From Asparagopsis taxiformis (Eukaryota; Rhodophyta; Florideophyceae; Bonnemaisoniales; Bonnemaisoniaceae): a stretch of 64,000 nucleotides of DNA. Positions 45,040-64,000 of the stretch are shown piece after piece (positions within the stretch are counted from its first letter, which is position 1; the number at the start of each line of letters is the position of its first letter). The position numbers were made by a program, and so were the translations under genes. The stretch lies in assembly GCA_030407315.1 (NCBI GenBank), contig JALQPE010001999.1, positions 28,933-92,932 on the forward strand, given 5' to 3'. The notes under the pieces are model-generated. The model was not told the origin of the DNA and made no database searches. It was given only the letters and a program-made list of their open reading frames with translations.

Positions 45040-45912
45040 TAATTCCCACCACATTTTGGATTCTTTACCCGTCCACAGTGAATCACTGAACGCAGTACAC
45101 TTGGACTCAGTGGTACACTGAAGTTTTACACCAGCACTAACTGTTGTAAGCTACACTAACAGTGGGTTTACCACACCGGTCGCCCCGGCCACTTAGGGTT
45201 TTTCCGACCGCCCTACTGTACCAGTATTTAGCCTATCCACTGACAACCGTAGCATTTCACTTAGGGCTAGCCACCGTGCTGTAAAATAGTATTTATTTTA
45301 CGGCGGATCGCCCAGTTCTTCGATTGTAAAGCTAACGGAAGTTCGGTTGTCATTGTGCTCCCAAGGTGTGTTTCGCCGTCTCATCCAGCCTGCTTCTCCC
45401 TTGGCTATAGCGCCTGGCACCCTTCTGGTACCCGTTCGTCGCTGATCCAGCGTTTGCACTTGGCACTCCAACCGCTGTATCAGCATTATCCCTTTCCACG
45501 CGCAGCCTGTGACGCGCGTGCCCCTCTATCGGGAGTCTTCGGCCTCTTGGTGTACCGCCGGACCTGATCGTGTCGCTTCGCTCCCATCCTGCGGATCGCA
45601 GTAACTTCTTGCATACTCCGCCTGTGGCTATAGTGCGTGGCACAAGTCAGGCCTTACTTGTAGTATACGTGGCAATTCCGAAATTTCAGTTATTTGCGAT
45701 TTCCGCGGAATTCGAATTTCGCGGACCCGGGCGATAACAGCAATGCACGAACATTGCTGGCGCGTGCGCACGCGCAACCGGCACACGTGTGCAACGAACG
45801 AACTGGTACGCGGCCAACGGACCAACGGGTCCCCACGTGCGACCCACAAGGTCCTCTCCCATTCGGGGACGTTTCGAGCAGTGTTTACACTGTAATGCGA
45901 TGCCATCGTGGC

Positions 45913-45918
45913 TATATA
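45913..45918 (+). promoter_or_regulatory. Possible retroelement TATA box
   Basis: TATATA lies in a GC-balanced context in the non-coding leader upstream of gag. It is suggested only by motif and position. Confidence 0.3.
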
Positions 45919-46444
45919 GGTATTGGCATCGTGCCGGGAGGGAAAGGGGACAATTATCGATCGGGCAACGTGCTCTAGTCTACGACTGACTTCTACGTTT
46001 TACGTTTACGTGTACGCCTAACGAGGCTTCATCTCCGTCGAGCTGCGTACTCCCTGCCCATTGCCACACGTGAGGCTGATCGCGTGTCGTGCCTCCGGGC
46101 TTGGTTGAGAGCGCCTCCGGTGACGTGCCACCTCGTTTGTTGAACGTAATCCTCGCGTGGATCGTTCGTCGTGACGCCCGTGTCTACTTGCTAACCTATT
46201 CTCTACCCTATCCTTTCTTTGCTACCAAAATACTGTCAAACACCAGCGGGTGGCACTGTTCGTTCCGTTTCGTTAAAGGACAGCGTGTCCGTAGCTCGTA
46301 CCAGCTATCTATGTCTAACGAACTATCGTTCCACACTGGTCTTCCGACCTAGAAGTTGCTACGAGCATAACGACAACCAACGAGGTTGAGCTCTTTTACG
46401 TTACGAAAGCTACGTGCTAAAGACTACGGTCTATGAATTACGCT

Positions 46445-48162
46445 ATGTCTAATTCGCGTGCGTCGCCCAGGCAACCGTTGCCAACGTCAGCGGACGCCGA
46501 AGCCGACGTGGCCTTGTCAGCAGAAGCGATCTTCGCGACTGATCGATCTATCCCGACGGATATCGAGGCGATCGGTCAGCTACCAGTACGGTAAGCCCGT
46601 TTGAGTCCTTGGGTATGGACCCCGCAACGCGCGGTCAGCTTAATGAAGGGAACGTGACTCCCACGGCACTGCGTGTAGTGTACGAAGACCTTCGAGGTCA
46701 CATCGAAAGGGCGAGCGACGCGGCCGTCGACGAAGCCGTAAGGCAGAGACTCGGAGTCTCGGCGCGCGAAGCTCTGGCGTTACGTGAACGCTCAGCGACC
46801 CTCGAACGGGAAAACGAAGATTTACGAAACCGCCTCTCCGCCGTGGAGGGAAGACTCGACTTGTTTGTCATAGTTTTTAACGAAATCGTCGCCGGACGTT
46901 CCGCTCCGCCGAGCGGAAGCGATCCGAATTACGAAGAAGGCTCGCGCGCCTATAACTCGCAATCCTCCCCCGCCGTTCCGGGAGGATACCCCTCAACACC
47001 CGGTCCGACGACCCCGACAACGTACGGAAGGGGGGCGACAGTGCAACGAGCCATCGCCAACCCCGACGAGACGCCACGAAGGCAATTACGTTTTAACGAT
47101 ACGCCAGACTACGCGCGGGCGGCGGATGCAGCACGAGCTGCACAATTCGATACGAGAGCTCCCACGCCACGTGAAGCGTACATTCCGTGGCTGGGTGCGT
47201 TCGGCACGACGGACACGCGAGTCCACGAAAACGAACGTGCCGACGCGGTACGCTTACCAGGGAACGCCCTCGGACCCGTTTGATACGCGTTGGCAGAGCA
47301 CACGACGATGCTCGATGCATTTGCGAACGTGGTGTCGTACCGCATGTATCGCCTTAACGATGTACGTGAACATCTCTACGTTAACGAGAGTCAAAGCGTA
47401 CACAAGCTCAAGCGTGAGATCGAGGGACTTTTACCTACGTTGAAGCCGTTCTCCGGCCGGAATCCGATTACGTTGCTCGGATTCCTCGCCCAAATACGTG
47501 ATGGGTTCAGCACACTCGGAGTGTGCGAGGGAGTGGCAGTACGTGCACTGCACTTCTTCCTCGACGGGGACGCCCGACGGTTCTACGATTCCCAGTGTAC
47601 GACTGGCGTGATCACGACCGATCCGACGAAGAGGTTCTCGTGGCCTCACGTAATCAACGCGTTGATTAAACGATACCTGCAAGACTACGTGCTGCAGGAG
47701 GCCTACGAAAAGGTCACGATGATCACGCAGAATCCTAACGAGGACGAGAATCAGTACGCTGATAGACTCGATACTGCCACGCGGGCATGCAACTACGTGT
47801 TTACGGACCGACTCCTCGTTCACCACTATGTGCGTTGTTTGCTGCCCTCGACGCGGGCAGCCGTGACGGAACGACTCCAGTCACTCCCCGAACGAGAGAG
47901 GAACGACCTCACCGTTGTGAGACGATTGGCGACGGCCGAAGGAACGACCTTCCGTGCACGTACGGCAGCGGTCGCGCCAGCTGCGAAACCGAAAGTGCGG
48001 TTTCCGATGAAACCTACGTTGGCTATTTCCTACCACGAGTCGAGGAAGTTTGCGGACTACGATGAGTCCGCGTACTTACGTAACGAACGGGCTAACGAGC
48101 CCAATTACCACGATGGTACGTCTGTGTTCTCGGAAATGGACGCGGACGTCCACAACCTCTAG
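46445..48162 (+). pseudogene. Retrotransposon gag-like gene, disrupted
   Basis: The open frame from 46615 to 48162 carries one in-frame TGA at 47281-47283. A separate 49-codon frame from the ATG at 46445 ends at 46594 and may be its shifted N-terminus. The part after the TGA is a retrotransposon Gag capsid domain: FSGRNPITLLGFLAQIRDGF, RALHFFLDGDARRFYDSQ, INALIKRYLQDYVLQEAYEK, QYADRLDTATRACNYVF. The part before contains a coiled segment (RSATLERENEDLRNRLSAVE) and Pro/Gly/Thr-rich linker. No zinc knuckle is seen. The TGA could be a degenerative mutation or, less likely, a readthrough site. Confidence 0.65.
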
Positions 48163-49764
48163 TACACCTAGTATTACTAGGCGGACGTCCATGTTCTCCA
48201 GTATTTTTGGATGTCCGCCTAGAACCGGACGTCCATGCGGTCTAGTACGTCTAGTATTACTAGGGCGACATTCATTGTTTCTAGTACCACGGATGTCCCC
48301 TCGGGATGGACTTCCGCCATGTCTATGTCCACCTAGGACGGGCGCCGGTTCAGAAATTCAAAAATTTCGACCCCAGAAATTTCTGCCGCCGTGCTCGACA
48401 TGGATGTCCGCATCCATCACGGCGACCACTCTATTTTTCCTTGTCGGTCGACTCCAATTTCGTCTTTAATTTTTTCATCCTCTCGCTCACACCCCCTTCC
48501 TGTTGGTGCTCACCTCCCCCGTACTGTACCTCAAACACCCCCAATACCACTCTAGCACGCATTTTCAGATACCTATCCCCGCTTCCACGGTGCACACCTC
48601 CATTCCATACCTACTTTTCTGCTCTACCGTACAGATTTCGTATAACCAGTCCTCATACTACCTCAGAATAGGGCAAAACACCCCCTATCTCCTCGACCAT
48701 GCTCTCCCCCATCACCTTTGAAACGTATTGTTCTTCAGTACCCTCTCTCCTCTACCCTCAACCCCTCTCCTTCGCCCTCTACACAAACTTCCCCTGCAGC
48801 TTACTCTTCCAAAACCTCTCTCTCCCCATCCCGTACCCGACCTGCTCCACCCCTCCCTCCCTCAGCTGCTCCATGCCCCCACGCCATCCGCATCTTCGAT
48901 ACCGTATACACCACCACCACCGGCCCACGCTCCCGCACTGCGGGGTGGCACCCCCGCCGTCTCCCCAGAAACCTCCCCGCTCTGAAACACATATCAACCC
49001 CCCACTTCGCACCCTTCCTCCCACTCCCCTCCCTCCCCAAATACAATAACACCCTTCTTCTCCATCACATCCCCACTCACCACAGCCAGAACAGACGCCA
49101 CCCCCTCCCCCTCTTTCTCCTCACTTTCCTAAAACCCCCTCCTCTCGGCGACTTCAACCGCACCCTCCTACGGTCCCACCTAAACACCTCCTCCGCCCTC
49201 ACTACCCCAACACCCCGCAGCGTCTCCCCAATCCCCATAATATGCTTGTCGGCACTCCTCTCCGAATCACACTCCATTCTAAACCCGCACTCCGTACATT
49301 TCCACCTCCCCCTGTACCATCCCAAGATTGCATCCCTCCACAGAACACATCCTCATACCACAGAAGAATTTTCTTCCTCTCATACCTCATCCTTAAAACC
49401 TCCATCTGCTCCATGTAAATTTCGATGTAAATATTTTCTCTACTATGCAATCTCAAACATGTATGAACGTATGCCTTTCCGCTTTGTCACCCTTGAATAT
49501 TGGTACTCATGTATTCATAAAATAGGGCCACCCACATCCCTATCCCGTTCTGCAAGCTTTACAAACCACTAGACGCATACTCCACAACTATACAACAAAC
49601 ACTACTCGCTATTTCAGACGACGCAGTACACAAGTAGCGTAGTCTCAACCTTCCGTGGCGCCTTCCCTTATGCGTACAAGTGCGAAAGACGTCTAGACTA
49701 CTACTACTACGATATAGTATATCAGAAGTGAGTGCGGGAATTTTCGGCACAGGAGATGCTGGGC
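48163..49764. other. Non-coding, pyrimidine-rich (very low G) tract
   Basis: From about 48470 to 49560 the plus strand is strongly depleted of guanine and rich in C and T, with many CCCC/CCTCC strings. The 284-codon plus-strand ORF at 48718-49572 exists because TGA and TAG cannot occur without G; its translation is low-complexity Ser/Pro/Leu/His. No protein-like reading was found on either strand. The first 300 bp hold short GGACGTCC-containing inverted and direct repeats. Confidence 0.55.
48177..48222. repeat. Imperfect inverted repeat after gag
   Basis: CTAGGCGGACGTCCA (48177-48191) and TGGATGTCCGCCTAG (48208-48222) are inverted with one mismatch. The CTAGTATTACTAGG string before it recurs about 75 bp downstream. 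Confidence 0.6.
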
Positions 49765-51215
49765 CACCAAATTGATTTTTCGGAAATTTTAGAATTTCTG
49801 GGCTGGCCAGCAGTGCAATCGAGCTGGACATCCACCGGACGTCCATTTCAGGTTGGTCGTGAGAGAGTGGGGCGGGACCATGATGAAACAAGGACCAAGA
49901 CCTGTCCCTGGCGTATTAAGCCTGAAATCGACCCTTCGTGAGACGCCATTTTGGCTTACAGTTGGTGCTTATAGAAGCCAGTGATAGCCCCGATCGGGGC
50001 GGCGGCCGGTTCCGGCTTACAGTTGGTGCTTACAGACGCCAGTGATAGCCCCCGATCGGGGCCAGCGGCCGGTTCCTGGGGCCGTTGTGGCCAAATGAGA
50101 CACCCTGATTAGAATTAAAATTTGGGCTATTCTCAAAAACATGCACATGTGAACATGTTTTTGAGATGGGGGTGTGCCGTACGGCACAATCGACCGCCCA
50201 AATCGATGTTTTTTGCAATATTTTTTTGTGCCCGAAATTTTAGAATTTCTGGGCTGGCCAGCAGTGCAATCGAGCTGGACATCCACCGGACGTCCATTTC
50301 AGGTTGGTCGTGAGAGAGTGAGGCGGGACCATGATGGAACAAGGACCAAGACCTGTCCCTGACGTGTTGAGCCTGAAATCGACCCGTCGTTAGGCGCCAT
50401 TTAGCCTTACAGTTAGTGCGTACAGAAGCCAGTGACAACCCCACTCGGGGCGGCGGCCGGTGCCTGGGGCCGTTGTGGCCAAATTAGACACCTTGATTAG
50501 AATTAAAATTTGGGCTATTCTCAAAAACATGCACATGTGAACATGTTTTTGAGATGGGGGTGTGCCGTACGGCACAATCGACCCGCCCAAATCGATGATT
50601 TTTTGCAATTTTTTTGTGCCCGAAATTTTAGAATTTCTGGGCTGGCCAGCAATGCAATTGAGCTGGACATCCGCCAGACGTCCATTTCAGGTTGGTCGTG
50701 TGCTGCCTACATCGACGCATTGCACAAACTAAGCAGGCGGGTTCACTACTAATACAAAGTGCACGGAATATGAGTAACGTGATGGGTGAGTAGTGTTTGT
50801 CGTGAAGGAATAAGGCGGGACCATGATGAAACAGGGAAAAAGATGTCACCCTAGCATAACTTAGGCTTAAAGCCTGGAATCGAACCCTCGTAAGACGCGA
50901 TTTTGGCTTACAGTTGGTGCTTACAGAAGCCAGTGATGGCCCCACTCGGGGCGGCGGCCGGTTCCTGGGGCCGTTGTGGCCAAATTAGACACCTTGATTT
51001 GAATTAAATTTTGGGCTATTCTCAAAAACATGCACATGTGAACATGTTTTTGAGATGGGGGTGTGCCGTACGGCACAATCGACCGCCCAAATCGATGTTT
51101 TTTGCAATATTTTTTTGTGCCCGAAATTGTAGAATTTCTGGGCTGGCCAGCAATGCATCTGAGCTGGACATCCACCGGACGTCCATTTCAGGTTGATCGT
51201 GTATCGTGCACGTCC
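49765..51215 (+). repeat. Left array of palindrome-bearing repeat module
   Basis: This is a partial copy followed by three copies of a module. Each full copy has a 12-bp-arm inverted repeat (CTCAAAAACATG ... CATGTTTTTGAG) at 50132-50165, 50520-50553 and 51021-51054. Each is followed by the perfect palindrome GTGCCGTACGGCAC at 50174, 50562 and 51063, then a conserved GGGCTGGCCAGCA...GGACGTCC segment. Spacings are 388 then 501 bp, showing a short and a long unit type. Short ORFs here merely repeat the module. Confidence 0.88.
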
Positions 51216-51469
51216 ACACATTACCGGAAGCAAGTAGGCGATGAAGCACGTACAAACCCAATTGTTCTGCTATTTCTACCATAGACCATCGAGTCTAGAG
51301 ATGTGAGGGAATCGTCCTGGAAATCATGCTCCAACCCACGAGGGAATGGACAATCTAGTTTGAAAGCATGGAACGGAAGTACATTATACTAGGTTCATAG
51401 ATTGAAAGTGATAAAGGAGATGATTATATTCTCGATAATTGTTTACCAAAGTAGTAGTTGTTAAGCTAT

Positions 51470-54400
51470 CTAGCCGTCGGAAAATTGTTCTTCGTCTTCG
51501 TCCTCATCATATTCAGGATCTCCCGGCAGAATAGGCGTTATCGGCAACCGTGGAGTTGATCTGCTCAAGATGAATTCTTCACCCGGTGTGAGGGTTCTCT
51601 TCTTGGGAGCTTCTGTCGTCTTCATCCGCATCATTCCGAGCTGCCCTGTCTTCGGCCTACGATCTTTCTTGACCGGGATGGGAACAACTGTCTTGTGGCG
51701 AACATTGACAGGTGCCGGTTGACTTTGCCTGGCAGACCGGCGCGGAGCATTGGCGATTACTTCTTCTTCGAATCCCAACCGCCTGATGAAACCAAACGAA
51801 ACATTGTCGGGAATCGGATACGACGCATTCCTGAAATACGTGTGATACCTCGTTGTCGTGTGTGACACAACTCTGTCGACATGCCCTGCCCCGGCATGTT
51901 GTACATGGCCGTGACCGATGAAGACTGAACGTGGCGGAACGATTACCTTCTTCAGCTTCATCGTCTTGGCGTACATATCTAATTCCAGCGCTTTGGAAAA
52001 GACGTACTTGTGGGACCCTGGACACACCCAGATAGGGAATCGGTCATCTCCGTTGGCAATAACAAAGTAACCCGGAAGTTGATCTTTGCGGTCGCGAGGA
52101 GGAACAGGGAAATCATTGTGTGGGACCTGCCGAGGACACCCCTTTCCCGTTATCAAAAACCGTCCCCCAGATGCCGGCATGACAAGTTTTTCTCCCGGTA
52201 AACCGCACTCCTCCAGCCCTATCAGCCGGACAAGGATTCCCAACCACACATCCAGCAGGGCTCGCCGCGTCACAAACTTGAACCGGTCGATATGCGTCTC
52301 ATCGTTCTCGGCATAGTCAACCAGGCAGTGGCGCGTAGACGTGAAGCGAGCCCTCCCCTCATTCCGGTTCTTCTCATCTGTTTCATCGTCCCCCGTATTG
52401 ACAATGGGACTCCACAGCTGCCGGTTCCCAGGGTCCTTGTGCACCTGCTCCCCCTCCCATGTTCCCAAGAAGTACCGAAACAATTCCTGGTTAGGAATTT
52501 CTTCCATGAGACCCAAGTCAAATGGGAACTTGTCCGACGCATCGAGGTAGCTTACATCCGCGAAATTGTGCATCACCGTATACCCTCGCTCGTTGATTTC
52601 CGTTCGGCAATTGTGGAAGTACGCCATACCAGTGCCGGCCTCATACGAATCCTTCCAGCTTGTAGACATTCGCGCAACCTGAGCGAAGTCCAGCCTCGAG
52701 GGTAGAAACGTCGATGTAGGCTCACACATCGCCTTGGCAGCCATCTTCCACGCTGCGAAAAACATCGGATAGATGGTGTCGATCTCCAAAACAAGATGAC
52801 GAGCCCGATGTTGTTCCGGAATATGCAGCCCCTCAAACACAGGGTCCATCGCCACTTGCTTCAAATACCTCACCTCTCTGCCCTCCTCATCGATTTCCAC
52901 ACTCTCCAATAACAACCTGAGCTCAATCGGGGGCAGACAGCCAACCCTCACCGATGCGATGACGTCCGCGGGACGCTGCGCCAGATGATGCCCTTCGGCT
53001 CGGTCTTTGACTTCGAAATCGTCAGGAAGAGATGGCATACGGTCGTCGAACAGGAGGTCGTGTTCAGAAGGAGAGTCACGAACGATGTAACCGTCTTCAT
53101 CGACTTCCACTCCTTCCGGAACAGTGAATGTAATTGTCACTTCGCGGACCCCCTTGCTTTCGACTTGGCCCTCGTCTGCACCCTGTTTGTCTTCCTCGTC
53201 CGAAGCGGTATGGACAGATTCTTGGTTGGAGGGAGTCGCACCAGCACGTTGGTTATCTTGGGGGACAATCTCAACGGCAGAATCGGGGGAACGGGCGGAG
53301 TCTTCGTCACCCTCATCACCGGAAACAGTGGCTTGTTGTTGATCGGTGGGTTTATCAACAACGGCCTGCTCTTCTTCCCCGGCGGATTGTTGTACCACAA
53401 CCGGCTCTTCTTCCTCGAGGCGTGTGCTCCCCGTCGAGCGAAGTCGCTGTGAACGGCGGCGGATGCCATGCGAAGCAGGCTCATGTTCGACATTCCGCTG
53501 CTTCTTGTGAGTGAGTCTCACATTGGCAGCAGAAGGGCGGCGTTTGCGTCGAGCCTTAGTCTTCTTCTTCAATGTCGGATTGAAAAACTCTTTCAAGTTC
53601 GTTTCCAAATCCTGTAAACGCGTGGTTCTCCGTCGCATTCGAACCTCACTGCTCCGGTCGTCCCCTCTATACATTGCAATGGCATTGGTGAGATGCCATT
53701 GCAACTCCTTCGGCTGCTTAACCGACCCAATTGCCATCTCTGTGCTCAGAAATGACTTGCGCATAATACTCTTTGGGCGCCCATACGCAGCGTACAGAGA
53801 ATTTGCTATTGCAGTCACGCGACGGACGTATGTATAGAAGTCGTTCACGTCAAAGCGTCCATCCGGACGTCCACCATGAGCAGGGTTCAAGTACTCCGAA
53901 AGACCACGCAAGACGAAGACAAAGTTTTCTTCCAGCAACTCGCGCACTATCTTGTGGTCCAGGTGCGTTATCCCAATCTCGTTGCGGCGCTCAGAATTGT
54001 TCAGCTCACGCAACACTTCGTCGAGAACAGGATGCTTCAGCGTTGCTATAGCCAAACGCGTCCACCGCCGGGCCGTGTTCGTTGAATTCATCATCCCCAT
54101 GAACTGCGCCTCGAACAATGTTCGGATGACATCAGACTCACGCAAGTCGCCAGCGTTTTCCACGTTATTTGCAACAGCAATCGTACGGATGAACTGCTGG
54201 ATGGACGACAAGATTCGAACCAGGGAGCGCTCCGTCAGTTGCGTCCCAGTCGTATGGTTCGACTCTGCACTCTTGTGGATGATCTCATGAGGCTGAAGAT
54301 CACTGTTGTCCTTGCGGCGAAGGTAGTACACATCCAGAGGCTGAGTAACCCAGCGCAAGCGGTTTGCGTCCTGTGGCAGCTTGGTTCTGTGCATACGGGT

Positions 54401-55466
54401 GAGGCGCGTGAAGTCATCGGCAATGCTATGCATAGCATTGAGACGATGCAGTCCGTCGATCACGGTCACGTTCGCATTGGCATGGAATTTTCCATTCTGG
54501 AACAGACGCGTGTCGGCGGACAGATGCGTGTTCTGCGACCTCAGCACCGTCACAGTGATACGCGAAGAGCTCACATACCCCACAGCCAACATATTGTTGC
54601 GCAGGTCCTCCACGTGGTCTTCTTTCACATCCCGAAGGGTCACGGCCGGTTCCACTAGCTGCCTCACCAACACAGTCGCTCCTTCTCCGACGTAATCCGA
54701 CGTCACAAACTTGGGCACCGTAATTTGCGTCCCCTGCTGCTCACGAATGCTCTCCGCCACCTCCGGTTCGTCGTCCACCTCGGTTACGTCCTGCGTAGTA
54801 GCTTCGGTGACGTTGGAGCGAGCAGGGTGCTTCGTGCCTCCACTGGAGGCTCTGGCAGAGCGAGCAGGTGCTTCGTGCTTCCACTGGAGGGTCTTGCAGA
54901 GCGAGCAGGGCGCTTCGTGCCTCCCGAAACCGGGACGGAGCGTGCTGGATGCTTCGTACCCCCGAACCAGTGATTTCGCCTGCTGGACCGGTACTGGGCA
55001 TCCGTCCCGAGCTGGCCTGGTTCGTCGCTGCGTTGAAGTTTGACGCTGCAGCAGGGGTACGAATGTCGCTAGGGCCATCCTCCGCAGCGGGGCGCATCAT
55101 CCGAGTATCCCAAGGGTAAAACGCCGCGGCGTATGCTCCACCCATCGTCTCCGGCGGTCCCTCGGCGCCATCAAACATGTACGGGAACGGGAGGTCCTTG
55201 AACTTGTCCTTAGTCGCAATGTTGCGCACGACGATATAGTCCGCCTCGTCGGTTTCCGGCAGCTTGTGGTTGTGCAGCGTGCGCGGAAGGCCAACATCGC
55301 CACCAGCAGTGCTCACCGAAGCCGTCCCAATATGCACAGCCGCACCGTCCACGTCCGCAAACAAATTGACATCGACGCCGCGCTTGAGTCCGCGCGACTC
55401 CGCTGACGCGCTCACTTGATCGCCGCAAACCGTTGAAAACAAACTGCTGAAATGCGTATCCGCCAT
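51470..55466 (-). CDS. ParB-like domain fused to 2-oxoglutarate/Fe(II) dioxygenase-like domain
   Basis: This large minus-strand gene lies between two repeat arrays. The intact frame from the ATG at 55078 encodes 1202 residues. Residues 137-225 resemble the ParB/sulfiredoxin fold, with VRQLVEPAVTLRDV and the nucleotide-binding-type motif IDGLHRLNA at 207-215. The middle is basic then acidic and disordered. The C-terminal domain shows the Fe(II)/2OG triad: His987 and Asp989 (VPHNDFP), then WVCPGSHKY, distal His1061 (VQHAGAG) and Arg1077 (TTRYHTYF). A different frame from the ATG at 55466, with excellent context (ACCATGG), encodes about 240 residues that look like the true N-terminus. The two frames differ by one base across a minisatellite, so an indel there or a cryptic intron is likely. 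Substrate unknown. Confidence 0.65.
54816..54975. repeat. Minisatellite inside the ParB/dioxygenase gene
   Basis: Four tandem units begin with GAGCG(A/T)GC at 54816, 54858, 54899 and 54938, giving periods of 42, 41 and 39 bp with a shared CTTCGTGC core. The 41-bp unit is not a multiple of three. The array lies where the N-terminal and main reading frames part company. Confidence 0.75.
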
Positions 55467-55744
55467 GGTTGTTGAGTTGGAAAGGAAAAGAGATGGTTGA
55501 CGTTGACGTATTCGAGTGATGTGGATGGTATGTTTCACGTTGAAGAATGGTCGTGAACGCCAATCGCTGGAAATAATAACACAATACAACCGAAATTTTG
55601 TTAGGTACACACCTATCGTGACCGCTGGAATGCAAGACAGGCAATCGAGATGTGAGTGTCCGTTCGGAACGGGCCCGAGTCGGGCTCTCGAAACCTGACG
55701 AGGTGGCGTGAAGCAGGCAGTGTCCTTGATGTGTAATGTGTTAA

Positions 55745-56862
55745 AATTACAGCTGTCAAGCTAGGCGGCTTTTGGGGCGGCTGCGAGCACCCCTTTATCC
55801 GGGGGACACCCTGATTTGAGTTAAAATTTGGGCTATTCTCAAAAACATGCACATGTGAACATGTTTTTGAGATGGGGGTGTGCCGTACGGCACAATCGAC
55901 CCGCCCAAATCGTTGATTTTTTGCAATTTTTTTGTGCCCGAAATTTTAGAATTTCTGGGCTGGCCAGCAATGCAATTGAGCTGGACATCCACCGGACGTC
56001 CATTTCAGGTTGGTCGTGTGCTGCCTACATCCACGCATTGCAGCAACTAAGCAGGCGGGTTCACTGCTAATATAAAGTGCACGGAATATGAGTAACGTGA
56101 TGGGTGAGTAGTGTTTGTGTTGAGGGAGTAAGGCGGGACCATTATGAAACACGGAAGAAGATTTCTCCCTAGCATAACTTAGGCTTGAAGCCTGGAATCG
56201 ACCCATCTTTCGGCGCCATTTAGCCTCACAGTTAGTGCTTACAGAAGCCAGTGATGACCCCGCTCGGGGCGGCGGCCGGTGCCTGGGGCCGTTGTGGCCA
56301 AATTAGACACCTTGATTTGAATTAAAATTTGGGCTATTCTCAAAAACATGCACATGTGAACATGTTTTTGAGATGGGGGTGTGCCGTACGGCACAATCGA
56401 CCCGCCGAAATCGTTGATTTTTTACAATTTTTTGTGCCCGAAATTTTAGAATTTCTGGGCTGGCCAGCAGTGCAATCGAGCTGGACATCCACCGGACGTC
56501 CATTTCAGGTTGGTCGTGAGAGAGTGGGGTGGGACCATGATGGAACAAGACCAAGACCTGTCCCTGGCGTATTAAGCCTGAAATCGACCCTTCGTGAGAC
56601 GCCATTTAGCCTTACAGTTGGTGCTTACAGAAGCCAGTGACAACCCCACTCGGGGCGGCGGCCGGTGCCTGGGGCCGTTGTGGCCAAATTAGACACCATG
56701 ATTTGAATTAAAATTTGGGCTATTCTCAAAAACATGCACATGTGAACATGTTTTTGAGATGGGGGTGTGCCGTACGGCACAATCGACCCGCTGAAATCAA
56801 GGTTTTTTACAATATTTTTGCTGCCCGAAATTCTACAATTTCTGGGCTGGCCAGTAATGCAT
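55745..56862 (+). repeat. Right array of palindrome-bearing repeat module
   Basis: This holds three further copies in the same orientation as the left array. The 34-bp hairpins lie at 55838-55871, 56339-56372 and 56725-56758, with spacings of 501 and 386 bp, the long then short unit order. The first copy is preceded by the inverted-terminal sequence; the last stops abruptly after GGCCAGTAATGCAT. Confidence 0.88.
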
Positions 56863-57395
56863 AGCTATCTGCTCTAAACCGATTCTAACAAGCAGAAAGA
56901 ATCCTCTCCATGACGATGCTCTCGAATTGAGTGCAATGCAACGGACTCCCTCCAAGAGAACGATAAAGCATCGTCTTTTCCAAGGCATTTCCGTACGAAA
57001 AATAATCGAAAAACATATTTGACTTTAACCTAACAGCTATCGCGAGCACCGTACTCAGCTATATTTCCTCTGTAATTTCCTTCCTCCAACCAATCAATAG
57101 CCGCTTGGTCACAGGCTTAAAAGCCTTCCACTATCTGTCCTATCCATCGAAGACCCTCGGAGGGTTCGATCCAGGCCTTGATCACCCATGATGGGTGTGC
57201 AACCCGAGAAAATGAAAATGGAACATATTGCGACAGGGACGAGATATCATTCAATGAAAGAGAAGTTCTCTTTCGTTTACTTTTTTCTAACAAGATTCTA
57301 AACGTCTACAAACCCTATGTCGTCCGTCCGTTTTCATCCCGGAGAGATGTGGATGTGAGGTAAGACGCAGTGGTGATGTTGCGTTGATTCCCACA
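56863..57395. other. Intergenic, unassigned
   Basis: This is about 530 bp of mixed sequence with no convincing gene. A GGTTCGATCC string at 57168-57177 looks like a polymerase III B box, but no tRNA fold or A box accompanies it. Confidence 0.45.
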
Positions 57396-57690
57396 GACGG
57401 AGGTGGAGGAGGTGGCTACGGAGGAAGCCTGGAGAACTTGTCCGGTACTGACATCTCACATGTTGAGAACATGTGAGATGTCAGTACCCATGGATGAGAA
57501 GAAACACATGTTCAGGTCCGGTTCGGATATTCTTTCCATTAACGGAGGTGGAGGAGGCTATGGTGGAAGCCTGGAGAACATGTGAGATGTCAGTACCCAT
57601 GGATGAGAAGAAAAGCATGTTGAGGTGCGGTTCGGATATTCTTTCCATTAACGGAGGTGGAGGAGGCTATGGTGGAAGCCTGGAGAAGAA
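57396..57690 (+). repeat. Glycine-codon-rich tandem repeat, about 109-bp unit
   Basis: ACGGAGGTGGAGGAGG-type units begin near 57396, 57541 and 57650. The last two are 109 bp apart and nearly identical; the first interval is 145 bp because it carries an extra palindrome arm. The encoded Gly-rich, Met-Asp-Glu-Lys-Lys reading shifts frame between units, so coding is doubtful. Confidence 0.75.
57444..57488. repeat. Perfect 21-bp-arm inverted repeat
   Basis: GGTACTGACATCTCACATGTT (57444-57464) is followed by GAG and its exact reverse complement (57468-57488). The right arm belongs to the 109-bp tandem unit; the left arm is an inverted copy of it, which points to a local inverted duplication. Confidence 0.9.
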
Positions 57691-57984
57691 TAGAGTAGTC
57701 CTATACCCATGGATCACAAGAAGACGTTGTTGGGCTCCTTTTCGAAGCCCATTCGTCTCTTGAATAAATTTAGCACCCAAATCATATACGATTGCCGAGT
57801 TGACACCCCGTATGTCTCGTTGGTAGAAATAGCAGGGGTTCCACCACTCAGCTGGCGGGAAGTAGTTACTGATTATATGAGATATGGCTTAGCTCCCGCC
57901 AAAACCGATAGCTCTGGGCTCAGGTTCTCCAAATGTGGTTATACGAATGTGTTCTGACAATGCTAGAAGACGAATATCTGCATC

Positions 57985-58166
57985 CTGATTTGAATTAAAA
58001 TTTGGGCTATTCTCAAAAACATGCACATGTGAACATGTTTTTGAGATGGGGGTGTGCCGTACGGCACAATCGACCGCCCAAATCGATGTTTTTTGCAATA
58101 TTTTTTCTGCCCGAAATATTACAATTTCTGGGCTGGCCAGCAATGCATCTGAGCTGGACATCCCCA
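57985..58166 (+). repeat. Solo copy of the palindrome-bearing module
   Basis: This single copy begins TCCTGATTTGAATTAAAA and has its hairpin at 58012-58045. It diverges from other copies after GAGCTGGACATCC near 58164. It lies about 350 bp upstream of the methyltransferase ATG. Confidence 0.88.
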
Positions 58167-58226
58167 TGTCCAGTGGCCGTCCGGATGTCGCTCACCTGGT
58201 AAGCGTGATGCACCTGTGACAACCTA

Positions 58227-58256
58227 TGTGACTGCAGTCACAGCCGCCATGGCGGC
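58227..58256. repeat. Two adjacent perfect palindromes upstream of methyltransferase
   Basis: TGTGACTGCAGTCACA (58227-58242) is directly followed by GCCGCCATGGCGGC (58243-58256). They lie about 260 bp before the ATG and could be protein-binding sites; no factor is assigned. Confidence 0.7.
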
Positions 58257-58513
58257 CGTGCAGTACAACACTCAAAGACAGGGAATCACAATCTTTTTAA
58301 AATTTTTCTCTACCACGTATCCGTCACAACTTATTACCTACACCGGTTACGGGTTTCAAGACCTTTCCAGTGCTGTGTACCCGTATACTCTGTTCCGTTC
58401 GATATCAACCAGTGTTCCTCACGAAAGAGTGCAAACGTCACGAGATACGTCGTCAAATTTGACTGTCTCGCCGAGCGGTCGCCATCCTGTACCGAATTTC
58501 CACTCATTCCATT

Positions 58514-61500
58514 ATGACGAATAAGCGCAGGCGCAACAGCAATCCGATCGTTGACGACGCAACCGTGCCAATTCTGCGCGAACCCGCTAGCCCTTGGGAG
58601 GATTCTAGTGACATGGGTACACGTCGAAACGTAGGTCGCGCCGCCCGCGAAACTACTCTCGCTGGCAAAGACTTCCTCCGCCTCTTGCTGGATTTGTTCG
58701 CCCATTCAAATTTTGCAGACTTGACGGACAAGCCGGGAGGGTTCACATACGCGGACCTTGGCGCTTGGGTTGCGCAGGGCACGGAAGAACAATTTCTGGC
58801 GCTGCAAGGTCCACTCAGCATGGCCTTCAGCGGTCGTTGGAAGAATGCTGGAGTCGAGGCGGATGTTGCCGAAATCGTCATGGCAGAGATGAACGTTGAG
58901 CGAGCCAAGCAGATTGTTCGTCTGGCATTACCCATTGCCGAGTTTTCAAGACAGGATGAGCGTATCGGGCAATGGGTTGAGCACTGCATCCTTTCTGGGA
59001 TCGTGCCGCAGACCTTCCTTATTGGATGTAACATGCTTCCTTCGCCACTACAGGCGCCGCAGCGCGGGGAACCAAGCGCCTTCGTTCTTGCTCCACCGGA
59101 AACGTTCGAGGTATTGATGTATTTCCAAGCGTTGTCTATCATCCGAAATCACAACAAGAACCTGCCGCGTCGCCGAATAGGCGACGCGGCCGAAGAGGGG
59201 AACGAAGCCGCACGCGTCCCAGCCCATCGGAAAAGCACTAATCGAGCTTGTTACGTGGTTCAAGTTTTTATACCATGCTTGGACCGATGTGGCCTTCGCC
59301 GCAAAGTTTTCCAGCTTCGAAGAGTTGATGGCGCCGTACATCATTTTCGACAGCAGTGAGCATTGGTTTGACGTGCTCGATGAAGGTCTATTCGCACCGA
59401 TGGAGCAGAAGCTAGATCTCTACCACGACAAAGCTCCCCTATCTCATCCTGATGGATATGGTGGAAAAGTAGAGACAAGAACCAGTGCGCAGCACAGTGC
59501 ATTTAGGGACCTTGTGAGGAAGTTCTTCGACCGGTTGCAGTTTCTTATCGTCAACCCGGACCTGTACACCTGGCCGGAGTCCGACCGCTGGGGGGCGCTG
59601 GAAATATACTTGTCAAGCGGAAATCCGGACAAGCTGCCAGCGTACTTTGACACCCTCGACGAAGACGTTATGGCTGTCCTCCGCCCGGCACCACAAGCCG
59701 CGGACGCAGAAAAGGTCCCCAAGCCGGTTGATGACACTCCCACTCGTCGCAACACAGGAGGGAGAGGTTTGGTTCCGTCGACAAGACACACAACCAGGCT
59801 TCAACTTGGACCTGGGAGGACCAGTCTTACTGCCCAAGGGCCGTCTCCCCCGTCACCGTCACCCCATGCGACAGAAGAGCAGGAAAGTGAAGGGCAGGCT
59901 CTCGCAAAGGACTTTCTTTCGAAAATGAGTCAGTATTGCCGGGTGTACGACGTCCCTTTCGAAGATTTGGTCAGTGCCGACGAGAGCCGAGAACACGTGC
60001 CCATCACGGGCAACGTTCAGCTCATTCTGACTGATCCGCCCTACAATGTTCGTCGTAAGAGGAACGATTCCAACTCTTCGTACGACAGGCTAACTGCAGA
60101 AGATATGCAGGCTAGCATCGAAGTGTTTGACGAGCTGTTGCGCCCCGGTGGCCACGGCATCGTGTTCTGCTCCGTTTTGCAGTTCTACGAATGGTTCCAT
60201 TACTTGGAAACGTACAAAGGACCGCAGTCAGAAGGCCCAACCGATGCTGCTGCCAGTGATGACGGGTCGGATGAAGAAGAGGTTACGTCCATGAATTCGG
60301 ACTCCGAAGCATCGCAGCACAGTGGCGAAGAAAGTGCGGATGAGGAGGATGAGTAGGACGAGGAGGACGTCGTTCGGAATTCAGTTTTCTTCGTTGACGA
60401 GTACCTCTGTTGTTTGTCCGACTACCTGGGCACCTCTATCAAATGCCGGGGCGGAAGAGGTACCAACGCATGAACATGGCAGAGGTCGCTATCCACTTCT
60501 GGAAGCGAGGTGTTCCGTTCAAGACTGGAAGCGAGATGGTGGCCTATAGGAACCACGGATACATGGACGGCACGTACCCGGCGTGGTGCAACGTCACCAT
60601 CAATATGCCCGCCATCGATTCGAATGAGATGGTGTGGCGAACAAGGAGCACAACCGGTGCTACGGTCAGAGTTCGTGCAGAGCAGAAGAGCGTCGCTCTC
60701 ATGATGGAGTTAATCAGCCAGCATTCACAGCCTGGTGATATTGTTGTCGATCCATTCTCTGGCACTTTCGCAACGGGAAAAGCAGCTATGAGCTTGCCTG
60801 AGCACCGTGTTTTCGTCGGCAGTGACATGGACAAATTGTGTGTGGCACGATCGCTTCCAAAGCTGTGTGCAGTCATGTCACGTGTAATTCTTTCAAACAA
60901 CACTGACATGAGGGTCACGACAGAAGCGAAACAGAGTGCTGAGAAGTTCTTGGCGTCCCCCTCTGTCACGATGCGTACGCAGAGGGAACGCAGGATCATC
61001 GAACCCCCACCTGGCCTTCCCCTGTACCAGAGGTTCCCGAAATATATTCGGCAGTACCTCTGGCAGCTGTGCCCAGAGTCGATTGCGTCGCACGAGCACA
61101 TGGAAAAACCGGTACATTATTGGCCACCTTCCCTGCGCCGCTGGTTGCAAACTGAAAACCCTCGCGTGATGCGGGCACACGATTGTGTTGCGAAAAAATT
61201 GAGCGTTCGACCATCGCTGATTAAGCATCCAAATGCAGGAAGAGGGCTCTTCGCTGAACAGACATTTAATGTTGGCGACGAAGTATGTGCATACTACGGA
61301 ACTGTTGTGTACTCTGATATGAGCAAGGAGTCGATTCGGTTCGCGTACGGAGAGGGTCACATGGCGATAACGAAGGAAACATTCTTGATGTATGCCATCA
61401 AGCTGTATGCAACAGCGGAGGACGACGAAAACATCGAGCATCCAATTTGGATTGTTCCGGCTCCGTTCTGTTCGGCGCAGTTCATCAACGACCCGCGGTA

Positions 61501-61710
61501 TTTGCGAGGTGAGGACACTCCGGCGGAAGACACCAGGCGGATGGCCAACGTCGAGTTTGTCGAGAACTACAGCAGCGGTTCGACGGGGAAGAACTCAAGG
61601 CGAAGGACCTAGAAAATCCGAAGATCATTGTAGTACGTGCAATCCGCGATATCCGTCCGGGGCAGGAGCTCTACGTTCATTATGGGACAGCGTTTAGAGC
61701 ATGGAATTAG
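58514..61710 (+). pseudogene. DNA adenine/cytosine-N4 methyltransferase fused to SET domain, frame-disrupted
   Basis: The gene starts at the ATG at 58514. An N-terminal region of unknown type runs to about 59160. The frame then shifts by about 59220 and continues (visible from PIGKALIELVTW) to a DNA methyltransferase motif IV, LILTDPPYNV, at 60024-60050. An in-frame TAG follows at 60354 and another shift near 60400. Motif I follows as VVDPFSGTFATGKAAM near 60745. DPPY before FxGxx is the order of beta-class N6-adenine/N4-cytosine enzymes. A SET domain follows (NAGRGLFAEQTFNVGDEVCAYYG near 61225, in parts) and resumes after a last shift near 61570-61600 as IRDIRPGQELYVHYG, ending at TAG 61708-61710. 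It is probably non-functional here, although unrecognised introns could explain some breaks. Confidence 0.7.
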
Positions 61711-61849
61711 GGTCACGAAAGATGTTTTCATTTCGACTACAAATAAAGCTACGTTCCAGAGTTGAAGTATATCATATAATGCAGCATGTCCAGCCACCAT
61801 TAGTCCAGGGTGAAACCTATTCAGCAGTACTCGCCTGTCAAAAACCAAT

Positions 61850-62187
61850 CGTTCACACTCTAGGTGCACTTCGTCCGAGCAGTGAACCTGACTGCTTGGT
61901 TGCTGTTATGCGTGCAGATGCAAAATACAAGACCAAGTTGAAATGGACGCCCGGTGGATGTCCAGCTCAGTTGCATTGCTGTCCAGCCCAGAAATTCTAC
62001 AATTCAGGGCAGAAAAAAATATTGCAAAAAACATCGATTTCAGCGGGTCGATTGTGCCGTACGGCACACCCCCATCTCAAAAACATGTTCACATGTGCAT
62101 GTTTTTGAGAATAGCCCAAATTTTAATTCAAATCAGGACGTCTTCCGGACATAGGGGTGCTCGCGGCCTAGCTCGACAGCTGTAATT
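61850..62187 (-). repeat. Inverted copy of the palindrome-bearing module
   Basis: Read on the minus strand this matches the other copies from the terminal GACAGCTGT sequence inward. The hairpin is at 62076-62109 and GTGCCGTACGGCAC at 62054-62067. The match extends to the GTTCACTGC...AGTGCAC part of the long unit near 61850. It forms the right boundary of the 6.4-kb segment. Confidence 0.85.
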
Positions 62188-62369
62188 GTACCTCATTAAA
62201 TACTGTTGATGACTGCCTACCGTATACAATCTGGGCTGTTGGCGTATTCTCCGGTACTTGACCTGACCTGAACGTTCATCGCAGACCGTTGTGGTTACCG
62301 ACACTATACAGCAATCTTTTTGTATCTCGTGCAACTCAATCCTTCCATCGCTTCCGGGAAGGCTTCATT

Positions 62370-63767
62370 ATGCCGCCGCGTATTGCGAAGAAAGCTCCAA
62401 AGCCTCCGGGCCTCCAGAAAAACCGGTCAGCAGCTGCTGTATCGAGTGCCCGACAATCCCGTGCGAAGAAGCGGTCTGGGTCTACCGGCAGCATTGAACC
62501 GCGGTCCGGTAGTCGCAAGACGGACCGGCGCAGAACTGGGGATCCGCAGCGAGAAAGTGAGGAAGGAGGAAAGGCGCGGAGAGAGATGGGGCTTGACCGA
62601 GGCAAGCGTGCTCGCAGGGACAGTGAACATCATGATGATGACATGATAGTGGCTCAAAACATGTTGGAATTGCGGCAGAGTGCTATGGCAAAGGTAGTTC
62701 CTCCCGGGTTGGCAGATGCGGAGGTGCTGCAGACGGAGTCCCAGCTGGGGGTTCCCGAGACACTGGAGGCTGGGACCCCACTGCGCCAACTATGCCGAGT
62801 ACATCAGCCTCAGCAGGTAATGCAGTCAGGGACCCGAGGATAGCGGCAAGGGATGTTGTTTCTGAGCAACATTCACAGGATACCATCTATCATCGGCGGT
62901 CAGGTGGTACTGAGGGGAGAGAGCAGCCGGAGTGCGGGCCTCGTCACAACAGACCGTCATTGGTGCCAAATATGCGCGTAGCGCCCCCGCGACGTCAGGC
63001 TATTGCCGATGGAGGACATCATAATCCCGATAGCGTGCGTGATGGGGGGAAGGTGAGGGCAGAGAGGTTGCATCCGCCGGAATCCATCGATTTAATGGCG
63101 AGTCGCATCAATGCGCAGAAGAAGAGATCGCGGAGCTGGAAAAAAGTGTTTAGCCAGGACATAGCAAACAAGGCGCTCACCACGGAGATAGTTGCGTTGG
63201 AGGCTAAGGTGAAGACTCTGCAGGCGGAAAATGCCAGCCTTACTGCAATTGCGAGAACAGGTAGAATCAGTGATCACGGTGGCGGTAAGTCGAACATACA
63301 GAAAGCCATTCCTGTGAAATACCTTGGAGTTCTTAGGGCGGTTGAGGAAAACTGACAAAGTGGTGCAAGAACGAGACTATGGAGCTGGACCCTATGGCGG
63401 AACAAACGCAGAGACGTTGGACTGGACGTACCATCGAGGTAGAGCCGGTAGAAGGGACACTTTGGAGCGAAAACGGTGTAGGATATATTGCTACCCCTCC
63501 GGGCTATATCATCAAGAACTGCAGTGGTATACACCTTCGTACAGGGACGAGAGTGATCTGCTGAATGACTTGGTGTGACACGTACTGCGCCAAAGTCCGT
63601 GGTGTGATGTGTTTTCCGATGAGGAGCAGCGTGTGTGCTGTCAAGAGGCTGTGGCGGGGAGCAAGGAATTGAAAGTGAAGGTGACGCAGAAACTGTCAGA
63701 CGTGATGAGTGCACGGAAGCGTAATGCGAGGGACAGATTGTTCGGTTCGCTGGGGTACAAGAATTAA
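62370..63767 (+). pseudogene. Fragmented basic, coiled-coil ORF of unknown function
   Basis: Several plus-strand frames follow one another: 62370-62843 (starts at ATG; very basic, Arg/Lys/Ser-rich with an acidic HHDDDM patch), 62792-63355 (ends in a coiled coil, NKALTTEIVALEAKVKTLQA) and 63379-63564 (TIEVEPVEGTLWSENG). A last frame reads without an ATG to a TAA at 63765-63767 and contains SARKRNARDRLFGSLGY. Together they look like one gene with shifts, or one with unmodelled introns; a GTAATG donor-like string lies at 62817. I do not recognise the protein. The basic N-terminus and coiled coil suggest a DNA-binding protein of an accessory element, which is speculation. Confidence 0.45.
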
Positions 63768-63940
63768 TGTCTAGAGGCCCGACGCTGACGACGCGAGCTG
63801 AGATGGACAAGCGAGAGGATCAAAAGCGCGAAGCTTCTGAGAGGCTTTTGAAACGGGAAAGCAAAGGTGATTTGGATATGGGGGATGTGGCGAACGGCAC
63901 CGTTCTCAGAGCTGCGATACAGCAAAGGCTTGGTTCCTGA
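63767..63940 (+). CDS. Possible small basic/acidic helical ORF
   Basis: This 57-codon ORF begins with an ATG that overlaps the preceding TAA stop (TAATG). It is rich in Arg, Lys and Glu (for example EMDKREDQKREASERLLKRE) and could form one long helix. It may be the shifted tail of the preceding fragmented gene rather than an independent protein. Coding status is uncertain. Confidence 0.3.
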   Translation: MSRGPTLTTRAEMDKREDQKREASERLLKRESKGDLDMGDVANGTVLRAAIQQRLGS

Positions 63941-64000
63941 CAGCTTCGAAATGGAAGTGAATGGTGATGCATGGTTTAACAACCGAGTAGCTGTGAATGT

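Follow-up and report, generated by a model that had tools for sequence, protein, structure and literature searches.

Relation to described systems

Among the closest described systems are DNA transposons of fungi (Kyakuja, Zisupton, Dileera, Plavaka and others) that, according to PMC12730594, carry TET/JBP dioxygenases, for which a role in removing 5-methylcytosine (5mC) has been proposed. The same paper gives the termini of PlavakaA as TGT..ACA and those of PlavakaB as CATCA..TGATG, states that in fungi PE-type proteins, too, were recognised only with the help of structure-based comparison, and names SET genes on HarbingerS and MuDR elements of Phytophthora (PMC12730594). In bdelloids, according to PMC8885841, N4CMT is a bacterial-type N6_N4 methyltransferase (MTase) fused to a chromodomain in a host without cytosine-C5 (C5) MTases. 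Here we describe a locus of the red alga Asparagopsis taxiformis at which two fusion genes, one joining a ParB domain to a predicted Fe(II)/2-oxoglutarate (2OG) oxygenase (ParB-2OG) and one joining a DNA MTase to a SET domain (MTase-SET), lie in a block at 49765..62190. This block belongs to the left and larger portion of a DNA transposon whose transposase is Plavaka-type. Positions are those of the window, the whole stretch of 64,000 nt that was analysed (G000:C1873:28933-92932), which ends at a contig end in a genome of 141.5 Mb and 3156 contigs.

The TET/JBP-carrying fungal transposons are likewise DNA transposons, Plavaka among them, with a 2OG dioxygenase predicted to alter epigenetic marks. 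In contrast to them, the red-algal oxygenase is not recognised as TET/JBP, is joined to ParB and is carried together with MTase-SET, the host is without C5 MTase matches, and the termini differ. Since these termini, CGTCTG..CAGACG, fit neither Plavaka group, we file the element only as having a Plavaka-type transposase. HarbingerS and MuDR share with it the presence of SET on a transposon, but the red-algal SET domain forms one protein with a beta-class DNA MTase and accompanies a Plavaka-type transposase. The likeness to N4CMT lies in the joining of a bacterial-type N6_N4 MTase to a chromatin domain, and in a host in which C5 MTases are lacking or, for the red alga, gave no match; the red-algal protein differs in having DPPY rather than SPPY, a SET writer rather than a chromodomain reader, and a transposon-borne rather than a host gene.

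Bacterial ParB and Noc, with their parS or Noc sites, have the same N-domain and helical fold and palindromic cis sites, the binding of ParB to the palindromic core being only a candidate relation in our case; unlike them, the red-algal protein belongs to a eukaryotic transposon, is fused to an oxygenase and has no ParA among the open reading frames (ORFs) scanned, which were part of all ORFs. The best PHROG match of the red-algal MTase is to the phage phrog_67 DNA methyltransferases, which are without SET and without a transposon, and when the ParB model is compared with viral structures, the top matches are phage ParB proteins, with a weak match to a phage 'modification methylase' (E 0.34). 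Phage methylases of this kind may carry ParB domains. DIRS retrotransposons carry a DAM-type methyltransferase domain and so are eukaryotic mobile elements with an N6-adenine-MTase-like domain, but they are retrotransposons without SET, ParB or 2OG. In the open-licence literature searched, we found no precedent for an element that combines these four domains and has candidate address sites as well.

A high-copy transposon, by its near-identical copies recently active, contains the block

The original prediction that the block is mobile is borne out by terminal inverted repeats, abundant termini, distinct flanks and empty sites. The left terminal repeat (48119-49413) matches, in inverted orientation, the right terminus of a second copy (L068) at 94% identity over ~1.3 kb, and the terminal C was found in 21/21 flanks. 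To its left, a gag-like multicopy repeat of 2.46 kb (45659-48118; Retrotrans_gag PF03732, E 1.3e-5), 93-94% alike among its listed copies, is interrupted by the element; since all four fetched copies of this repeat (4/4) run uninterrupted through the insertion point, 48119 is the left terminus. In copy C1567, a relative of the gag-like repeat is also found next to the element's right part.

A genome-wide count of the exact terminal 17-mer gave 1282 occurrences, as against 0 for the reversed control. We used this count rather than the 2722 loose terminal matches, which include internal subterminal repeats; at two termini per copy it corresponds to roughly 640 copies, to which shorter relatives with the same termini would also contribute. 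The flanks were distinct in all 21 cases examined (21/21; ungapped identity at most 47%), and TA directly precedes 7/21 termini. Over 2.3 kb, 23 of 24 copies diverge from the majority by 0.04-0.83% and look recent; the 24th (L057), 28.5% off, aligns only from ~1 kb on and was dropped from the CpG and palindrome comparison. Near-identical copies, different insertion places, terminal inverted repeats and frames that stay open in many copies fit a transposon that is recently active and high-copy. As to a target-site duplication, which in Plavaka elements measures 2-3 bp, the flank pairs of C20 and C102 differ, but these two are probably not single copies, and C164 is probably two elements. A nested insertion is seen at L071 (C102:15038-15140), where the ParB-2OG gene of one copy contains a terminus of a second.

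The prediction had drawn the block as bounded by its repeat module and as holding two large genes; the block itself is confirmed, its boundaries are too narrow. On the left side, copies at the 40 listed places match the window from 49500 rightwards. On the right, window 61613-62360, 3' of the block, is shared at 99-100% identity in 40 listed places, the window included, and the element therefore continues past 62190, its right end lying beyond the contig end at 64000. The predicted right junction of the window copy was looked for and not found. We estimate the element at roughly 23-24 kb, a figure summed from separate copies with varying array lengths that includes ~7.5 kb added beyond 64000 from copy alignments. 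In the right part of other copies (L068, L044), 43-bp tandem arrays of variable length precede the right terminal repeat. The features within the window are as follows.

48119..49413, plus strand: left terminal inverted repeat, terminus 5'-CGTCTGTGTTCTCGG (inverted match to L068, terminal C, empty sites)
49783..51287, plus strand: module array A, on the 3' side of ParB-2OG (repeat families D1-D5; cores 50121-50193, 50509-50581 and 51010-51082)
51470..55078, minus strand: ParB-2OG gene (P0001), open frame of 1202 aa (ORF list and relatives)
51809..52186, minus strand: predicted Fe(II)/2OG oxygenase core, H987, D989, H1061 and R1077 (invariant motif)
53798..54703, minus strand: ParB N-domain and helical, helix-turn-helix-like part, DGxHR at residues 208-212 (ParB/Noc fold matches)
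55688..56991, plus strand: module array B, between the two genes (cores 55827-55899, 56328-56400 and 56714-56786)
57981..58163, plus strand: module copy upstream of MTase-SET (core 58001-58073)
58514..61710, plus strand: MTase-SET gene, interrupted in the window copy (PF01555, PF00856; intact versions elsewhere)
61892..62168, minus strand: inverted module copy (core 62048-62120)
62370..64000, plus strand: start of a coiled-coil gene that runs on beyond the contig (ORF; 569-aa frame in L038:1962-3671)

Beyond the two fusion genes, the element thus has a coiled-coil gene, for which a profile scan gave no family above cut-off, and a transposase gene. The latter, read in other copies on the minus strand, encodes 1013 aa with a match to PF18759 over residues 149-478 (E 1.9e-24, 86.9 bits against a cut-off of 26.3), and its frame is open in 3/3 sampled copies (1037-1043 codons).

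We assessed the linkage of the two fusion genes from a DNA search with the 3' end of the ParB-2OG gene, in which 40 places were scored of 1021 candidates. For at least 11 of these 40, the same contig also has a listed place of MTase-SET or of the DNA that immediately follows it, and in at least 9 of the 11, the window included, the MTase-SET place is 7.3-9.5 kb downstream on the same strand. Gene order was the same in three sampled copies, as far as read. The two genes thus travel together, as had been suggested; rather than being single-copy, or scattered over unrelated loci without the module, they are multi-copy and linked.

Two fusion proteins kept in distant relatives

The domain calls of the original prediction stand to different degrees: MTase-SET is confirmed by Pfam and by fold search, ParB is called on a fold match, and the oxygenase is predicted at motif level. 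A fold search of the ParB-2OG structure model matches ParB/Noc, the ParB N-domain being present, and the DGxHR motif is invariant in 5/5 proteins compared. The oxygenase motif HxD...H...R is likewise invariant in 5/5 relatives. Strands are predicted in the oxygenase stretch, with a predicted local distance difference test score (pLDDT) < 50 over nearly the whole length; an oxygenase fold such as the double-stranded beta-helix did not surface in fold searches of the model, viral structures included, and none of the five members matched a TET/JBP domain at E 10.

With full-length P0001 as query no relatives were found; its residues 740-1130 match four relatives, P0008-P0011 (E 4.7e-74 to 4.2e-42), in which the fusion is kept at 25-30% identity. 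No ParB-2OG relatives were found in the viral contigs searched, and matches of the ParB-2OG profile to PDB sequences were set aside as chance (E >= 0.47). Among sampled copies, C221 has a frame of 1099 codons with both motifs, although near the gene end this copy ceases to match the window; the fetched part of C1567 has a ParB-2OG frame of 753 codons, and the short part of C192 has no such frame. A 41-bp tandem array, its period not a multiple of three, lies at 54816-54924 in the 5' part of the gene, and the relatives' conserved N-terminal stretch (RGLK...WDTRMM) is found upstream in another frame, within 54741-55610; an intron, a frame change or a loss might account for this.

The intact MTase-SET version P0002 has 1065 aa. 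Its MTase domain is of the beta-class N6-adenine/N4-cytosine type (PF01555, with the DPPY motif before the motif-I stretch), and intact versions contain a SET domain (PF00856), for which the window's own broken frame gives no match. The frame reaches at least 1000 aa in 65 of 104 listed MTase-SET places and falls short of 1000 aa in 39, with 23 below 600 aa. The fusion is kept in relatives at 27-29% identity. Viral contigs gave one 43-residue match for the MTase. In a related protein, P0007, a DGxHR domain precedes the MTase (weak match), as if the ParB-like module served another enzyme too, as an address label usable with either. Each fusion being kept in distant relatives, both are old, and the retention of both with invariant catalytic motifs points to purifying selection on them.

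Two 109-bp tandem units, 96% alike, lie at 57465-57687 between a module array and the MTase-SET gene. Within the element (48119-64000) GATC reaches only 0.47 of its expected frequency, compared with 0.98 to the left of the element; this scarcity might be related to site choice by the MTase, or to composition.

A conserved palindromic core around the fusion genes

The repeat module is an internal cis-repeat of the element, not its boundary. Each of the eight palindrome sites in the window lies within the element, and the 73-bp core holds two dyads, one of them a perfect 14-bp palindrome, GTGCCGTACGGCAC. The core is identical in 8/8 window sites, with drift in the flanking repeat, and is found 3' of the ParB-2OG gene, between the genes, before the MTase-SET gene and, inverted, behind it. 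In fetched DNA, a non-random sample of loci, the exact core was present at 54/68 distinct genome sites (up to 12 mismatches allowed in the search) compared with 9/48 for one chosen 73-nt stretch next to it in the same repeat, a constancy that is expected of a binding site. The palindromic core is a candidate ParB binding site.

5mC is an unlikely target in this host

A search for C5 DNA MTases (PF00145) gave no match in the A. taxiformis genome and was positive in 10/14 controls, a null that may reflect a divergent gene or an assembly gap. Phycobilisome-linker matches numbered 13 in the same genome, with Synechococcus the sole positive among the 14 controls, as fits a red alga. The CpG observed/expected ratio is 0.97 over the whole element part of the window and 1.08 to its left, the two genes having values of 1.07 and 1.09; transition variants fall at 8/306 CpG positions and at 14/898 of the remaining C/G positions, numbers too small to support an argument. 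Because PF00145 has no genome match, 5mC is unlikely to be the target, and a 5mC-removal role as proposed for fungal TET transposons is unlikely here. The suggestion that the element hides its copies from silencing is therefore unlikely where silencing by 5mC is meant, there being neither a C5 MTase match nor CpG depletion.

Possible roles of the two enzymes

The anatomy of the element is well supported; its mechanism and the joint function of its genes we infer. On balance we favour, by a modest degree, a self-targeting chromatin-editing cassette on a transposon with a Plavaka-type transposase. Bacterial ParB and Noc load at sites and slide outwards. By analogy, the palindromic 73-bp cores flanking the genes would be the loading sites of the ParB part, from which it would slide outwards along the element and carry the oxygenase across that copy; there the oxygenase would oxidise a methyl mark, either on histone lysine or as N6-methyladenine (6mA) or N4-methylcytosine (4mC). 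The MTase-SET protein would methylate adenine (DPPY) or the N4 position of cytosine, and histone lysine along with it. Most likely all this would serve to keep chromatin on the copies permissive, or tightly controlled, such that the transposase can be expressed and active. We hold more tentatively, as possible rather than probable, that the transposon uses a ParB-CTP clamp, loaded at its own parS-like palindromes, to spread the oxygenase, paired with a single-polypeptide DNA-histone methyl writer in a host without detectable 5mC machinery; the element would then own a self-contained epigenome editor addressed by sequence.

The enzymes might instead serve copy-number control, MTase-SET silencing the element's own copies through 6mA or 4mC and a repressive histone mark and ParB-2OG lifting or limiting this, much like the bdelloid 4mC silencing loop. 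We regard this as unlikely, though as deserving attention: the copies are young and very many, so any repression is not strong, and the SET domain matches MLL1, an activating-type enzyme, about as well. Less probable again is that the accessory enzymes are passengers captured by chance without joint function, the cores being transposase-binding sites only. Repeats inside transposons can bind transposase, as in CACTA elements, and broken MTase-SET frames in many copies (39/104) fit this explanation, but 65/104 frames are still open, the fusions and their catalytic motifs persist in distant relatives, and the window cores are placed around the accessory genes. The ParB N-domain with its helical part and the arrayed, constant palindromes would also suit a partition or replication role. 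Copies in an extrachromosomal or replicative phase would then be held or segregated by palindrome-bound ParB, and the enzymes would do no more than mark them; this we consider very improbable, given the lack of ParA among the ORFs scanned, the joining of the ParB part to an oxygenase, and the chromosomal insertion shown by termini and empty sites.

Transposons with one epigenetic enzyme are already known; here two fusions, four domains and candidate address sites are present in one element, and the proposed mechanism would be new if demonstrated. If the relation between ParB and the core is true, eukaryotic chromatin would here be targeted by what was once a bacterial partition clamp. The element would also be a likely origin of any 6mA or 4mC in this red alga, and self-marking by mobile elements would become directly testable.
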